A DNA stretch of 55,393 nt from Chloroflexota bacterium (GCA_016219275.1 JACRBM010000026.1:1-55393); one strand, 5' to 3'; counted from the stretch's first letter, positions 67-11,238 are shown. Numbers and translations: made by a program. Notes: a model not told the origin generated them from the sequence alone.

Positions 67-264
67 TTAATTGTCAGGGAGAGTTGTACCACCCCATATT
101 AGCACAGGGGGTTGTGTGGCGGTTGCAATATCAAGCTCCTTACGTTTCTTCTTAATCTCCCAATAAGCCAAGATACGTTGCCCAACGAACCACGTCAGGC
201 CAAGTACGAAGAGCGCAAACGCTGTTTTAATTAGTTCAATATATACTTGTTCAATGAAAGTCAT
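67..264 (-). CDS. small single-pass membrane protein of unknown function
   Basis: 65 residues. A hydrophobic segment at about residues 10-33 is followed by a basic stretch (KKKRK, about residues 38-42), suggesting a single membrane helix with a cytoplasmic C-terminus. A GAGG ribosome binding site lies 9 bases before the ATG. A TTGACA-16-TATAGA promoter at 381-408 points at it. The C-terminus is short and lacks a recognisable domain, so it may be a truncated form of a longer membrane protein. I do not recognise the family. The gene lies beyond the last attC-like repeat and may be the next cassette of the array. Confidence 0.5.
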   Translation of the reverse strand: MTFIEQVYIELIKTAFALFVLGLTWFVGQRILAYWEIKKKRKELDIATATQPPVLIWGGTTLPDN

Positions 265-431: not shown

Positions 432-527
432 TATAGAGGTTAACATTTGCTTTTAGAATCCCCCGCCGCGAAAATGCCTAAAACAAGCCATTCCAGCAGT
501 TGGAGATTCTAAATCATTATCTTAACA
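432..527. repeat. 96-bp palindromic repeat, copy 2
   Basis: Exact direct copy of 285-380, offset by 147 bp and separated from it by a 51-bp spacer that carries a promoter. The two copies plus spacer account for most of the 445-bp gap between the genes at 264 and 709; the remainder is the attC-like site at 551-680. Confidence 0.8.
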
Positions 528-550
528 GCTATAACTGTAATAGTGATGCC

Positions 551-680
551 GCCGAACGGTTTGCGTTACCCGCGGGTGGGCGGGACGAGACAACGCCATT
601 TTGACGGAACCAGTCTCGAGCCAAAGAAAGTGCCTGAAAACGCGCAGACTCCCACCAGTCGGGTGCACGCTGTGTTGGGC
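551..680 (-). other. attC-like recombination site (130-bp type), distal end of cassette array
   Basis: Read on the minus strand it opens with GCCCAAC (674-680), fitting the attC R'' consensus RYYYAAC. An L''-like segment GCGT-G-CACCCG follows, and the site closes near 551 with the complementary CGGGTAACGC arm and GTTCGGC. The unpaired G in the first arm resembles the extrahelical base of integron attC sites. About 80% alike to 2834-2963. The closing box departs from GTTRRRY at one position. It follows the hydrolase gene, as expected for a cassette. Confidence 0.6.
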
Positions 681-708
681 AGTTCTTTTGGATATTCACC
701 CAGCAAAC

Positions 709-1539
709 TTAGGACTTGAGAAACGTTAATCGCTTTTGCCAGACATCCTGCGCCGACTTGCCAATCCAAATTAGATGAGTGTCGGCAGCTACTTCATAGA
801 GTTCACATATCGCAACTTCTGCGGCGACTCGCTTGGCATTCTTGAGCGGCACTGACTTATCATATGGCGAATGCATCACCAAGACGGGCGCGGTAATTCC
901 CGATAAGTCATCCACCCGATGATTGATGTCATTCATAAATCCAGTTCCTGATTGGGACGTTTTGATGAGCCAATGCACAAATCGCAAGTCATCTGGGCTC
1001 ATGCGTTGGATGACCTCATCTACATTCAAAGTGGTCATTTCTTGCAGCATCAACCGCATCATCGTCATTGGTGCCAGTCTCAAAACCGTTTTTATCAGCC
1101 CCCAAGTGATACGTTCAGCACGACCGAATAGAAGGCGCGCACCCCGCTTGACTTCCTGATCGTCTGGCCAGACCGTTGTAACCGTTGACTCCATGATTAG
1201 TTTGCGAATCCGACTGGGATGGCGCAGAGCAAAGGACAGAGCCGTTGGGCCTGAGGCAGAAATACCGATCACATCAGCCACGGGAATTTGGAGCATGTCC
1301 ATCAGTGCGGCAAGAGCGTCTGCCGCCTCCTGAGCGGTTCTTCCTACTTCAGAAGGAGTGCTGTCGTAACCTGGGCGAGAAGGGGTGAGAACTGAAAAGC
1401 CATGCTCAATCAATCGCTCGTGTGACAACCGACTCTCTCGACTGCAATGCCCACCGTTCAAAACCATGACGGTCGGTCCACTGCCTTCGAGACGATACTC
1501 AATTGGCCCCTTCGTGGTGTTAGCGATATTCCGTGTCAT
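709..1539 (-). CDS. alpha/beta-hydrolase fold protein (cassette gene)
   Basis: 276 residues, usual for single-domain hydrolases. The nucleophile elbow GISASG puts the catalytic serine at residue 94. The acid is likely the Asp in HSPYDKSVP and the base the His in DTHLIW near the C-terminus. An oxyanion-type LNGGH lies at about residues 27-31. No signal peptide, so probably cytoplasmic. The ATG has a GGAGA site 8 bases upstream and starts about 35 bp after the GTTGGGC box of the preceding attC-like repeat; another such repeat follows the stop. That spacing is typical of an integron cassette. Substrate cannot be told from sequence. Confidence 0.88.
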   Translation of the reverse strand: MTRNIANTTKGPIEYRLEGSGPTVMVLNGGHCSRESRLSHERLIEHGFSVLTPSRPGYDSTPSEVGRTAQEAADALAALMDMLQIPVADVIGISASGPTALSFALRHPSRIRKLIMESTVTTVWPDDQEVKRGARLLFGRAERITWGLIKTVLRLAPMTMMRLMLQEMTTLNVDEVIQRMSPDDLRFVHWLIKTSQSGTGFMNDINHRVDDLSGITAPVLVMHSPYDKSVPLKNAKRVAAEVAICELYEVAADTHLIWIGKSAQDVWQKRLTFLKS

Positions 1540-1574
1540 TAGAGATTGTCTCCATTCGAGTAAGTGCTTTTACT

Positions 1575-1798
1575 GCCCAACGGGGCGGCGGATCAGCCGC
1601 GAGGTCGAGCCGCGAAGCGAGCGAGACCGAGTCGGCTGCATCCGCTTGTTCGACGGCGCGCAGCGTCCGCTCGAACGGTTTGCGTTACCTGCGTGTGGGC
1701 GGGCGTGGATAATGCCTGAGAGCAGGAAAAACCCGAAGTCAGAAAAATGTTTGTAAATCGCGCAGACTCCCGCAAATCCACTGCACGCTTTGTTAGGC
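1575..1798 (-). other. compound attC-like repeat (129 + 80 bp units)
   Basis: Outer boxes on the minus strand are GCCTAAC (1792-1798) and GTTGGGC (1575-1581), both fitting attC consensus boxes. Inside are two units: 1670-1798 (large loop, diverged) and 1575-1654 (80 bp, almost identical to 2689-2768 and 3690-3769), 15 bp apart. The 80-bp unit folds as GCGGAT-G-CAGCCG against its complement with one bulged G. Reading frames through this repeat are spurious. Confidence 0.65.
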
Positions 1799-1905
1799 GT
1801 TCTTTGTTGTGCAAGACTCACCGCCTGAAAAAAGGCGATATCTTGTTAGGTTTTATTGTTATGTTCCAAAACAACGCTATCACTATCCCTTCAGCATGGA
1901 TTATG

Positions 1906-2631
1906 TCATGCAGATTCAAGAGCACGTTTTTCCCACTTTGGGAGATTCACACCTCTTACGATGAGCCACAGGGAAAGTGACAATTCCCCAATTAGGGCAA
2001 GCGCTAGAACGGGGAGGATCGCCCCTGAGTATTTGGGCGCGAGGATAAGCGTGAAGCTATTCGTTAAATAACTCAAGCCCGCAATCACTATCAAAACGCC
2101 AACTGCCCTAGGGAAATAGCCCGAGCTGAAAAGCAAATATCCATAGATCAGACATGCAAAACCGAAAAATATCAGCCCGATGCCAAAGCCGAAATCATGT
2201 ACTCTGACAAAGAGATAGCTTAGCGCATATAGCTGACTGGGTTCGATAGCTTTCAGGTAATCTGCGTTGCCCAATAAGAACAGTGGCATCAAAAGATTTA
2301 ACTTGTTGACGACCAATACAGCAGTTTGGATTAGATTAAATAGCACTGCAAGTAAAGCCAGGTTCTTGTTGACTGGCTTGAGCAATATATACATAACTAG
2401 CATTATAGGAATATCGAACACGTGCAATATGATGTCGCCAGCAATACCAATGCGCCACAGCGACTCGGCAGCTATAATATTTTTTGCTGTGGACATGGCA
2501 TCGCCTGACACAATCAGTCTGCCTCGAATGAAAATTTGATCCAGTGCACCCACGACAATGATGAGGAGATACAGAATGCCAGCAATTCGGGCATAAACTT
2601 GTGGCGATGTTCCAATGGTACGGGTTGTCAT
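1906..2631 (-). CDS. DUF4386 family membrane protein (cassette gene)
   Basis: 241 residues with about six hydrophobic helices. The YARIAGILYLLIIVVGAL start and the later pattern of helices match the DUF4386 family, whose role is unknown. I chose the ATG at 2631 because AGGAG lies 8 bases upstream; the frame is open 36 bp further but without a binding site. The gene begins about 58 bp after the GTTAGGC box of one attC-like repeat. It ends 108 bp before the next, a longer tail than usual for a cassette. The first half and flanks are AT-richer than the metabolic genes to the right, consistent with acquisition from elsewhere. Confidence 0.8.
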   Translation of the reverse strand: MTTRTIGTSPQVYARIAGILYLLIIVVGALDQIFIRGRLIVSGDAMSTAKNIIAAESLWRIGIAGDIILHVFDIPIMLVMYILLKPVNKNLALLAVLFNLIQTAVLVVNKLNLLMPLFLLGNADYLKAIEPSQLYALSYLFVRVHDFGFGIGLIFFGFACLIYGYLLFSSGYFPRAVGVLIVIAGLSYLTNSFTLILAPKYSGAILPVLALALIGELSLSLWLIVRGVNLPKWEKRALESA

Positions 2632-2688
2632 TTTAATTTCTCCTAAATTCAGATTAGCTGACAACAATACATCTTAAGAGTTGCAAAC

Positions 2689-2963
2689 GCCTAACGGGGC
2701 GGCGGATCAGCCGCGAGGTTGAGCCGCGAAGCGAGCGAGACCGAGTCGGCTGCATCCGCTTGTTCGACGGCGCGCAGCGCCGAGAACAGCGGATGGAAGT
2801 CCGCCGCCCCGTTCGAGCGGCGCGAAGCGTCCGCTCGAACGGCTGGCGTTACCCGCTGGTGGGCGGGAGGAGATAACGCCACTTTGACGGAACCAACTCC
2901 AAGCCACGAAAACTGCTTGAAAACGCGCAGACTCCCACCAGTCGGGTGCACGCTGTGTTAGCC
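2689..2963 (-). other. compound attC-like repeat (130 + 80 bp units)
   Basis: Outer boxes on the minus strand are GGCTAAC (2957-2963) and GTTAGGC (2689-2695). The units are 2834-2963 and 2689-2768, separated by 65 bp. In the larger unit GCGT-G-CACCCG-A-CTGGTGGG pairs with its own complement across a loop of roughly 80-90 bases, with two bulged bases. The TAA stop of the gene at 2958-3626 lies inside the GGCTAAC box, a common arrangement in integron cassettes. Confidence 0.7.
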
Positions 2964-3626
2964 AGCTTCTTGGGGCGACAAATTGATTGCTGTCTCAGCA
3001 GACTTTGACGTAAGCGGACTGAGGCTCGTAATTTCGCATTTAATCAGAATATATCCTTTTAATGACTCATAAATGTGGAATGCGAGGTTTTGAAGGAGCA
3101 AAGGTGCGGCATTCGTTACGACTTCTCGCTCCCCATTGAATTTCAAAGTTGCGGGTCGTTCGTTAGTAATATGACCAGATATTACTTGCCATCGGTCATC
3201 ATTTTTAGGAGCAAATATTGCAATGCTTTTTGTTGGAGGGTCTCCTCTCCAGTAAAAAGAAAACGTAGCCATAACCCCTTTATACAATGCACCTGATTTA
3301 CTGGTCGAGACTACTAAGCCGAAACTTGGTCGGAAATCTGGATTCTTCGGGCAGGTAAAGCTAATAGCGTCTCCCCAACTTTCATGATTATCATAAAAGA
3401 TGCCGCAAACAATATCGCTATCAATCTTCTGCTTCTCCAATTCGAGATATATCCGATAGTTTTCTATAAGTAAGCCAGCGCCCAGGAAAGCCCAATACCC
3501 CCACGTTGGAACATTGATATTTATTCCAACCGCGTTGAGCGCAAATAGCAGTATATCGAAAATCCCAACGGCAATAACTGGTGCAGATTTTAGGAGTCTA
3601 AAGAGATATTGTCCTATTGTTTTCAT
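2958..3626 (-). CDS. membrane-anchored protein of unknown function (cassette gene)
   Basis: 222 residues. Two hydrophobic segments near the N-terminus (about residues 12-34 and 41-55) are followed by a soluble domain of about 160 residues. That domain has alternating beta-type stretches (for example ATFSFYWRGD and KSIAIFAPKNDD). I do not recognise the family. The stop codon is inside the R''-type box of the next attC-like site. A weak GAGAAAG ribosome binding site precedes the ATG. AT-rich compared with the leu genes to the right, consistent with a mobile cassette. Confidence 0.7.
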   Translation of the reverse strand: MKTIGQYLFRLLKSAPVIAVGIFDILLFALNAVGININVPTWGYWAFLGAGLLIENYRIYLELEKQKIDSDIVCGIFYDNHESWGDAISFTCPKNPDFRPSFGLVVSTSKSGALYKGVMATFSFYWRGDPPTKSIAIFAPKNDDRWQVISGHITNERPATLKFNGEREVVTNAAPLLLQNLAFHIYESLKGYILIKCEITSLSPLTSKSAETAINLSPQEAG

Positions 3627-3689
3627 GTTTCTTTCTCATCCATCAGATGAAAGACATGGACATTGCTTACCAAACGATTCACATGAGCT

Positions 3690-3769
3690 GGCTAACGGGG
3701 CGGCGGATCAGCCGCGAGGTCGAGCCGCGAAGCGAGCGAGACCGAGTCGGCTGCATCCGCTTGTTCGAC
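3690..3769 (-). other. 80-bp attC-like unit at the upstream edge of the cassette array
   Basis: Differs from 2689-2768 and 1575-1654 at only two positions each. Outer boxes are GTCGAAC (3763-3769) and GTTAGCC (3690-3696) on the minus strand. Similarity to the spacer of the 2689-2963 repeat continues to about 3809 and then stops, so the 130-bp unit expected next to it has been lost. This is the apparent breakpoint between array and chromosome. Confidence 0.6.
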
Positions 3770-3847
3770 GGCGCGCAGCGCCGGGAATAGCGGAGATAGT
3801 CCGCCGCCCCCACACGGCGGATTAGACTGCATCGTTCGCTTGGTGAG

Positions 3848-3876
3848 AATATAACCCAGTTTAGACATCAAGTCAA
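3848..3876 (-). promoter_or_regulatory. promoter reading into the cassette array
   Basis: TTGACT (3871-3876 complement), 17-bp spacer, TATATT (3848-3853 complement). It lies about 80 bp outside the outermost attC-like unit and faces the cassettes, the position of a cassette promoter (Pc) in an integron, though no integrase gene or attI is recognisable. Confidence 0.55.
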
Positions 3877-3904
3877 TGCAGGGCGACCGATATTAGCACA
3901 ACAA

Positions 3905-3938
3905 AAAACCTTGCGCCGAAATTTCAGCGCAAGGTTTT
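3905..3938 (-). terminator. intrinsic terminator of leuB
   Basis: AAAACCTTGCGC (3905-3916) pairs with GCGCAAGGTTTT (3927-3938) around a short AT-rich loop; on the minus strand the stem runs into TTTTTTGTTG. It begins 6 bp after the leuB stop codon. Confidence 0.85.
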
Positions 3939-3943
3939 CGATT

Positions 3944-5035
3944 TCATAATCGCGCCATGATCTCATCCGCCATCTCACGCGTGCTCAACACGCGCTCTCC
4001 TTCGCGCGCAATGTCGGCGGTGCGACAACCATCGCCAATCGCGCGCTCGACTGCGCGTTCAATCGCGTCTGCCTCCTGTCCCAGGTTGAGCGAATAGCGC
4101 AACAACATTGCCGTGCTCAGGATCGTCCCGATCGGATTCGCGATTGCTTTGCCGGCAATGTCCGGCGCAGAACCGTGGATCGGTTCGTAAACCCCCATAG
4201 CCACGCCCTTTAGGGCGTGGCTACCGAGTGACGCCGACGGTAACAACCCCATCGAGCCGACGAGCACCGCGGCTTCATCGGTGAGAATATCGCCAAACAT
4301 GTTCTCGGTCACGATCACGTCGAACGACGCCGGCGCGGCGACGAGTCGCATCGCGCACGTGTCCACGAGCAAGTGATCGAGTTTCACGTTCGGATACGCG
4401 CGCGCGGTCTCGGTCGCAATCTCGCGCCACAAGCGCGAACTCGCCAGCACGTTCGCCTTGTCCACCGAGGTGACGCGCGCGCGACGCGGCGCGGCAAGTC
4501 GAAATGCCAGGTCAACGATGCGTTTGATTTCAACGTCCGAGTACTCCAGCGTATCCACGGCGCGCGTTTTTCCACCCTCCGCGTCGTCAAAGCGACCTTG
4601 CGGTTTGCCAAAGTACAGTCCGCCGGTCAATTCGCGCACGACGACGAAATCCACGCCCGCGATTTTTTCCGGCTTGAGCGGCGAGGCGTACGCGAGCGCG
4701 GGATGTGGTTTGACGGGGCGCAGATTCGCGAACAAACCGAGTCCTTTGCGCAGACCCAGTAAGCCCGCTTCGGGTCGCGTTTTCGCGTGCGGGTCGTCCC
4801 ACTTTGGTCCACCGACCGCGCCGAGCAGTACCGCGTCCGCGCGTTTGCACGCGTCGAGCGTCGCGCTTGTCAATGCTTCGCCGGTCGCGTCAATCGCGCA
4901 ACCGCCGATCAGGTGTTCTTCAAACTCAAACGAATGCCCAAATCTTTTCGCGATGTGTTCAAGGACGCGCACGCCTTCGCGCGTAACTTCGGGACCGATG
5001 CCATCGCCGGGCAGGGTGATGATGTGAGCGTTCAT
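3944..5035 (-). CDS. leuB: 3-isopropylmalate dehydrogenase
   Basis: 363 residues. Catalyses NAD-dependent oxidative decarboxylation of 3-isopropylmalate in leucine synthesis and of the methylmalate product in the citramalate route. The N-terminal [10 protein letters not shown], the metal/substrate region around [11 protein letters not shown] and the nucleotide-binding [13 protein letters not shown] are all present. GGAG lies 5 bases before the ATG. The loop before VYEPIHG is about five residues longer than in well-known LeuB proteins and is encoded by a perfect 12-bp DNA hairpin (4198-4223). A terminator closes the gene. It is separated from cimA by a decayed toxin-antitoxin locus on the other strand. 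Confidence 0.97.
4198..4223. repeat. 12-bp perfect hairpin inside the leuB coding region
   Basis: TAGCCACGCCCT faces AGGGCGTGGCTA with a two-base loop. It encodes roughly residues 271-280 (HALKGVA) of LeuB, a surface loop, and adds residues without breaking the frame. Confidence 0.75.
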
Positions 5036-9642: not shown

Positions 9643-11238
9643 TTAAGTGCTCACTAATTCCAACGTCGAATGCTGCGCGTGCATCCGCGGCGAACTTTGC
9701 GCGGTGATCAGTTTGTTCAGCGCGGCGAGGTACGCCTTGGCGCTCGCGACGATAATGTCCGTATCCGCGCCGTGTCCGCCGAACGTGCGCGAGGTGTCCG
9801 CGTTCGCTTGCAAGCGCACGGTCACTTCACCGAGCGCGTCAATTCCTTCGGTGACCGCGTGGATGTTGAATTCGACTAGCGTGCACGGCTCGCCGACAAT
9901 CGCGTCAATCGCTTTGTACGTCGCGTCCACGGGACCCGTGCCAATTGCGGCGAATGTTTTGTCCAAGCCCCCTGGTCCGATCAGACGGACTGTCGCCGTC
10001 GGCATCCCGTGGCGTCCGCACACGACCTGGATGTCTTCGAGCCGGAACACTTCGTTCGGTTGATAAAACTCGTCCGCAATCAACGCTTCGAGATCCGCAT
10101 CGGCGATGTATTTTTTCTTGTCGGCGAGTTCTTTGAAACGCGCGAATGCCTTGTCGAGGTCTTGCTCGTTCATCGTATAACCCAGCGCGCTGAGATGCGC
10201 TTTGAACGCGTGTCGTCCCGAGTGTTTGCCCAAGACTAATTGCGACGCGGACACGCCGACCGTTTCGGGGCGCATGATCTCGTACGTCATTTGATTCTTG
10301 AGCATCCCGTCCTGGTGAATTCCGGCTTCGTGTGCGAACGCGTTCGCGCCGACAATCGCCTTGTTTGGCTGGACGGGAATGCCGGTGTAATTTGCGACCA
10401 TTTTCGACGTGCGCGAAATTTGTGTCGAGTCAATCCCAGAATGCAGACCGAATACCGCCGCGCGCGTCTTGAGCGACATGACCACTTCTTCGAGCGAGGT
10501 GTTGCCCGCGCGTTCGCCGATGCCGTTGATCGTCACTTCGGCTTGGCGCGCGCCGGCGCGCAGACCGGCGAGTGCGTTCGCGGTCGCCATACCCAGGTCG
10601 TCGTGGCAATGTACCGACCACACCACCTGGTCGCCGCCGCGCGTCCCTTCGATCAAACCCTTGATGAGCGCGCCGTATTCCTCCGGCGTCGTGTAGCCGA
10701 CCGTGTCTGGAATGTTGAGCGTCGTCGCGCCGCATTCAATCGCGACCTCCAGCACGTCGCACAGGTATTCGGGATCGGAACGCCCGGCATCTTCGGGCGA
10801 GAATTCGACATCGGCGCAGAGCGAACGCGCATACGAAACCATTTCGCGCACGCGCTCGACGACTTGCTCGCGCGTCATCTTGAGTTTGTACTTGAGATGA
10901 ATATCCGAGGTTGCGAGAAAAGTATGGATGCGCGGGCGCGCCGCGTGTTTTACCGCGTCCCATGCCTTGTCAATGTCGTCCTTGTTCGCGCGCGCCAGCC
11001 CCGCGATCATCGGCGGTTGGCTACCATCGCGCGGATTGCCGACTTCGGTTGCGATGCGGCGCACCGCTTCGAGATCGTCCGGCGACGCGGCGGGAAAACC
11101 GGCTTCGATGATGTCTACGCCGAGCCGCGCGAGTTGCCGCGCGATTTCGAGTTTCTCCGCGCTCGTCAGCGATGCGCCCGGCGATTGCTCGCCATCGCGC
11201 AAGGTTGTATCGAAAATGCGAACGTATTTATTGTCCAT
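9643..11238 (-). CDS. leuA: 2-isopropylmalate synthase
   Basis: 531 residues. Condenses 2-oxoisovalerate with acetyl-CoA, the first committed step to leucine. [16 protein letters not shown] at the N-terminus, [18 protein letters not shown] for metal and substrate, and the [16 protein letters not shown] motif are typical. Residues from about 400 form the allosteric leucine-binding domain. AAAGGA precedes the ATG. The DGEQSPG version of the first motif distinguishes it from cimA in the same cluster. A 102-bp inverted-repeat spacer precedes it. Confidence 0.96.

Follow-up and report, generated by a model that had tools for sequence, protein, structure and literature searches.

Integrons are usually pictured as one integrase, one attI site, and one cassette array. 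An earlier note on the DNA described here held that integrons are little known in Chloroflexota; they have already been reported there (PMC8618304, PMC9668308), as have CALINs and cassettes without an open reading frame (ORF-less cassettes) (PMC8618304, PMC9668308, PMC9024848). The IntegronFinder authors warn that draft genomes inflate CALIN counts (PMC9024848). In Treponema phagedenis, intI has been lost and attC kept; the paper states that there is one attI only per integron (PMC3607928).

We analysed a stretch of 55,393 nucleotides (the window), which is contig C26 of the Chloroflexota (Anaerolineae) draft genome G000 (6.16 Mb, 107 contigs, 97.9% complete). Positions 551-3696 of its minus strand are an integron gene cassette array: three single-gene units with long repeats after each. 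The repeats are composite, made of a 129-130 nt attC site, here type A (three copies), and a palindromic ORF-less unit, here B (three copies, two truncated). All cassettes carry a single gene, share one orientation, and end in an attC, and the window holds three type-A sites and no IntI-like match. We therefore regard the array, with high confidence, as a CALIN: an Anaerolineae-type integron cassette chain with no integrase in cis. Its features are listed below; R1 is a model of type-A sites.

3944-5035: leuB, the upstream neighbour; the array begins right behind it.
3848-3876, minus strand: promoter-like TTGACT-17-TATATT just upstream of the array, the best consensus match within 500-4000, where the number of matches is at chance level.
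3690-3810, minus strand: site 4, the array start, a 5'-truncated ORF-less B unit, 95% identical to the B unit at 2690-2846; its R' box GTTAGCC (3690-3696) is the front of cassette 3.
2958-3626, minus strand: cassette 3 gene, 222 aa; its stop codon (2958-2960) lies within R''.
2834-2963, minus strand: attC of cassette 3 (type A), R'' box GGCTAAC at 2957-2963; R1 score 133.6 bits (training sequence), covariation.
2690-2840, minus strand: B unit, an ORF-less hairpin cassette, with GTTCGAGCGG, 10 bp, CCGCTCGAAC, then an attC-like hairpin.
2689-2695, minus strand: R' box GTTAGGC.
1906-2634, minus strand: cassette 2 gene, DUF4386 membrane protein, 242 aa from ATG (PF14329, 184 bits).
1670-1798, minus strand: attC of cassette 2 (type A), R'' box GCCTAAC at 1792-1798; R1 score 128.2 bits (training sequence).
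1575-1676, minus strand: internally deleted B unit, matching the 3' part of B at 98% identity over 90 bp; its R' box GTTGGGC (1575-1581) is the front of cassette 1.
709-1539, minus strand: cassette 1 gene, alpha/beta hydrolase, 276 aa (PF00561, PF12697, PF12146).
551-680, minus strand: attC of cassette 1 (type A), R'' box GCCCAAC at 674-680 and R' box GTTCGGC at 551-557; R1 score 129.1 bits (training sequence).
67-264, minus strand: probable cassette 0, a 65-aa ORF behind the front GTTCGGCGGC, running toward the contig edge.

The 222-aa protein has no match in Pfam, NCBIfam, or PADLOC, and defence-gene and NCBIfam scans of the cassette proteins gave no specific match. The 65-aa ORF has no family match, and no attC is seen between it and the contig edge. 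The cassette after site 1 holds two 102-nt imperfect palindromes (285-386 and 432-533), 99% identical and 147 bp apart. The same element occurs at the attI crossover on contig C56 of the genome (L166, about 172-276); it may be a MITE or a further gene-less cassette. At the other edge, GGCGGATTAGACTGCA adjoins two arrays, that of the window (3815-3838) and that of contig C30 (L034, about 9865-9890), and is possibly a genome-wide repeat.

Much of this layout had been described in the earlier note. The three minus-strand units with long repeats behind each, the stop codon inside an R'' box, the gene starts shortly after the sites (about 36-64 bp behind the R' boxes), and the lack of an integrase between the array and leuB are all seen. 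The proposed extent of 545-3810 needs correction: 545 is not the end, and the box at 551-557 is the front of another cassette, that of the ORF at 67-264. The reading of the outer boxes as attC consensus holds for the three R'' boxes and three R' boxes and fails for GTTCGGC at 551-557, which departs from strict GTTRRRY, as does the GTTCGAG of the B unit. Boxes alone prove nothing, because the bare RYYYAAC box is found 99 times in the window against 78 expected, which is near chance. The proof is carried by structure, relatives, and a test of cassette ends.

The end test uses the geometry of insertion. If each gene came in as a circle, the first bases of a cassette (from GTT) are expected to pair with its own last bases (to AAC), regardless of its neighbours. 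The ends of window cassettes 1-3 match over 10, 10, and 11 bases; each begins with 10 bases that form the reverse complement of its last 10, and the ends differ between cassettes. The pairs are GTTAGCCAGCT/AGCTGGCTAAC (cassette 3, where the site 4 front GTTAGCCAGCT is the reverse complement of the cassette end), GTTAGGCGTT/AACGCCTAAC, and GTTGGGCAGT/ACTGCCCAAC. Across 42 cassettes of the order, positions 4-12 gave 266 matches versus 179 +/- 8.3 with swapped ends (maximum 210 in 20,000 permutations). In 48 held-out cassettes, from genomes not used before, positions 4-10 matched in 321 of 336 cases versus 177 +/- 9.5 when permuted (maximum 215), and positions 11-15 gave no signal (71 vs 67.5 +/- 5.8). 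Since the signal covers positions 4-10 and then stops, these cassettes have 10-bp self-complementary ends, three bases beyond the 7-bp core site. Matching of a cassette to its own end is a mark of cassettes inserted one by one. In the class 1 integrons R46 and R388, positions 8-10 match in 7 of 12 cases, a count made by eye on four distinct cassettes only.

The structure of the type-A site is that of an attC. R1 was built from fourteen type-A sites over 133 alignment columns: three window sites, five from other parts of the genome, and six from the related genomes G303 and G312, where the training sites share contigs with an intI and lie within about 5 kb of it. The stem returned by RNAalifold is the stem expected of attC and agrees with the attC structure drawn by hand. 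In the drawn structure, 91.8% of cells are paired versus 83.0% when shuffled. The covariation score is 0.264 versus 0.130 shuffled (0/500) and at most 0.085 when the partner is slid, and 8 pairs show two-sided changes. The hairpin has a GCGT/ACGC L box, an unpaired A at column 22, and a covarying stem. Taken alone, site 1 has a minimum-free-energy fold no better than its shuffles (z -0.1), so the attC structure is visible only by comparison across sites. An Rfam gathering scan of the window gave no match. The R1 scores of the window sites prove nothing by themselves, because these three sites are in the training set, and R1 E-values are rough.

Relatives supply the independent evidence. R1 finds sites in 16 of the 20 genomes of the order, including 10 of 10 good-quality ones, and sites lie beside intI in G301, G303, G312, and G318. 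In G312, the array next to intI includes a site with 93% identity to the window site at 2834-2963. Arrays of tens of R1 sites lie beside intI in G322, G323, G324, and G327; in G322, intI is at C1:1395044-1395988 and the sites run from 1397151 to 1460720. In G326, the sites and intI share a contig and are a few kb apart. Because genomes G321-G328 did not contribute to R1, its detection of long intI-adjacent arrays there independently supports the attC assignment. The integrases of the relatives exceed the curated IntI cut-off of TIGR02249 (265 bits), and IntI is present in 8 of the 20 genomes of the order and in 30 of 301 in a phylum sample. No gene of the window's own draft genome reaches this cut-off, by the one family model applied, and about ten attC sites are found there. 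The earlier note's main claim, an integrase-less array in a Chloroflexota genome, is thus borne out.

A gapped pattern with about 30 specified bases, scanned against 84,980 genomes, gave at least 120 stretches, most from MAGs titled Anaerolineales, Anaerolineae, Chloroflexi, or Chloroflexota. A handful bear other titles, e.g., Nitrospirae, Saprospiraceae, and Bathyarchaeota; these could reflect transfer or binning error. A plasmid search with the attC/B stretch gave no match. The exact type-A pattern is present in 26 IMG/VR viral contig stretches (L292-L317), up to four per contig; type-A cassettes may travel in phages, or the viral contigs may be mis-binned host DNA. On contig C85 of the window's genome (L035), a short hairpin resembling attC but of a different type (GGCTAACATCACGTGCAGCCGAC...GCGGCTGACGTACACGTTAGCC) stands ahead of a cassette with a type-A attC at its end; more than one attC type is thus present in this genome.

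The genome also holds attI sites with no integrase beside them. Five such orphan loci (C43, C41, C59, C66, and C56) lead arrays and match the region directly ahead of intI in G318; three keep an intact TATAAT promoter motif. A profile made from six intI-adjacent copies only finds all five: C43 at 7.6e-7, C41 at 5.7e-6, C56 at 1.3e-5, C59 at 0.0023, and C66 at 0.012. When intI-adjacent and orphan copies are aligned at the crossover GTT, one common architecture emerges, mostly ungapped: TATAAT, then a palindrome (TTATACAG..CTGTATAA), a C-run, another palindrome whose sequence varies, and CATA/GTT. In this second palindrome, symmetry is kept while the letters change, in orphans and intI-adjacent copies alike. 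The attI of G321 is its own variant of this architecture. The C59 copy has lost its promoter part, and the C66 copy is cut by an IS66-like transposase (identified by eye). On C59 (L036:1-850), a CRISPR repeat array precedes MntA/HepT-like genes (by eye) and the orphan attI with its B unit by a few hundred bases. L168 (G313:C76) and L162 (G314:C6) show, directly ahead of other genes, the promoter part of attI (about 45 bp, TATAAT included) and no attI palindromes.

Orphan attI lead arrays in many relatives. One 3.1-Mb contig of G321 carries intI and attI at about 2.319 Mb and further attI at 1.474, 1.791, and 2.148 Mb (0.17-0.84 Mb from intI), each pointing into its own attC array. G324 has four orphan attI, one of them 96% identical to the intI-adjacent copy. 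Pieces resembling intI are kept at three orphans, in G308 (residues about 15-48), in G321 at 2.148 Mb (C-terminal residues 246-317), and weakly in G307, so some orphans, at least, arose through intI loss. Class 1 integrons with an IS-truncated intI1 and an intact attI1 exist, and a single orphan attI is therefore not new in kind; the unusual part is several per genome. A brief search of open-licence papers found no description of dispersed integrase-less attI platforms.

We propose the following course of events. A cassette consists of a single gene and its attC site. By integron biochemistry, the tyrosine recombinase IntI would have the bottom strand of attC form a hairpin and bind it, cleave GTTRRRY after its G and before its TT, and string cassettes together head to tail, at attI or behind another attC. 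The sequences themselves show the substrates of this reaction. A resident or ancestral IntI most likely built the window array and the other arrays of the genome, and its gene was later lost or lies in unassembled sequence. The window array would now be static unless IntI is supplied, its cassettes becoming movable again only by IntI in trans, in a genome that keeps five orphan attI. A wider reading, which we hold tentatively and at somewhat less than even odds, is a distributed integron. One IntI, resident or transferred, would serve several promoter-attI platforms in trans, each with its own array; genomes such as that of the window would be temporarily integrase-less, with platforms kept ready.

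The attI profile has no match in the window, and no recognisable attI stands ahead of its array. Under the proposed course, the array's own attI would have been lost with the left part, where the first B unit is truncated, or was never present. A competing account is that an IntI from elsewhere inserted cassettes directly at a non-attI (attG-like) chromosomal target, so that the array never had an attI. This fits the missing attI, the start right behind leuB, and insertions of this kind reported for IntI1, as cited in PMC12901181. The truncated B unit at the array start points instead to a lost left part, and at C41, C59, and C66 attI is likewise directly adjoined by a B unit; we consider this account somewhat unlikely.

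Slightly less probable is an ordinary complete integron split by the assembler, with intI and attI on an unassembled or unbinned piece. All arrays read in the window's genome are at most about 3 kb away from a contig end, and the assembly may therefore have dropped intI. The earlier note had suggested looking for intI elsewhere in the genome, and the resulting absence weighs less in a draft than in a closed genome. The frequency of intI in the order and the known inflation of CALIN counts in drafts (PMC9024848) also fit such a split. Against it, the orphan attI of C41, C43, and C59 have contiguous chromosomal left flanks without intI; CP070764.1, a 4.5-Mb single-record chromosome, carries nine attC sites and gives no match to IntI at E 1e-30; and G321 keeps its orphan-led arrays on one contig. 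A tyrosine recombinase on contig C4 (L001:610-1758, 382 aa) was considered as IntI and rejected: it scores 200 bits, below the cut-off, and its match skips model positions 179-232. It scores similarly with XerA/XerD models and has an extra N-terminal stretch of about 90 aa.

The B unit, which lies between attC and the next gene in the window and after type-A attC in G307 and G313, is probably an ORF-less cassette that would move as one. Its ends (GTTCGAGCGG, 10 bp, CCGCTCGAAC) obey the cassette-end rule, with 10 of 10 bases self-complementary. That the repeats are MITE- or REP-like palindromes between genes, unrelated to integrons, is highly improbable: B is strongly palindromic (fold z -7.5 vs shuffles) and recurs in the genome, but the ends are cassette-specific and self-matching with no fixed terminal repeats, relatives carry long type-A arrays next to intI, and copies of B border attI or attC. 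The earlier note had counted repeats at non-cassette positions as evidence against an integron; copies read elsewhere in the genome are all at cassette or attI borders.

Anaerolineae, a class known mainly from metagenomes, have many attC arrays and repeated attI without an adjacent integrase. Judged from sequence, they often seem to have several cassette docking sites that lack an integrase and are spread over the chromosome. If IntI acts on these platforms in trans, CALINs in such genomes would be extra docking sites, beyond dead remnants. If the distributed integron is true, cassettes could be acquired and expressed at several chromosomal sites. The class-wide attI profile and the 10-bp end rule mark attI and cassette borders, for which current tools have no such means outside class 1 integrons.

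The window array resembles the CALINs of IntegronFinder in having at least two attC, single-gene cassettes in one orientation, and no intI. It differs in that its genome also has orphan attI, which IntegronFinder does not seek outside class 1 (PMC9024848). The sedentary chromosomal integrons of Anaerolineae and Chloroflexota share the attC type, the cassette-end rule, and the attI architecture, whereas this genome has no detected intI. The Treponema phagedenis remnant (PMC3607928) likewise kept attC and lost intI; it is one locus at a syntenic integron site, whereas here several loci are dispersed, with attI retained at loci other than the window array. Delta-attI cassettes of class 1 and 2 integrons (PMC12901181) resemble the orphan attI in placing attI sequence away from intI. 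They are partial attI replacing attC inside an array, whereas the orphans span roughly 115 bp, mostly with a promoter motif, and head separate arrays. Finally, ORF-less gene cassettes (PMC8618304) share with B a recombination site without a gene; B differs as a recurrent hairpin with a body of roughly 30 bp, found in several genera, either at attI or right behind attC.
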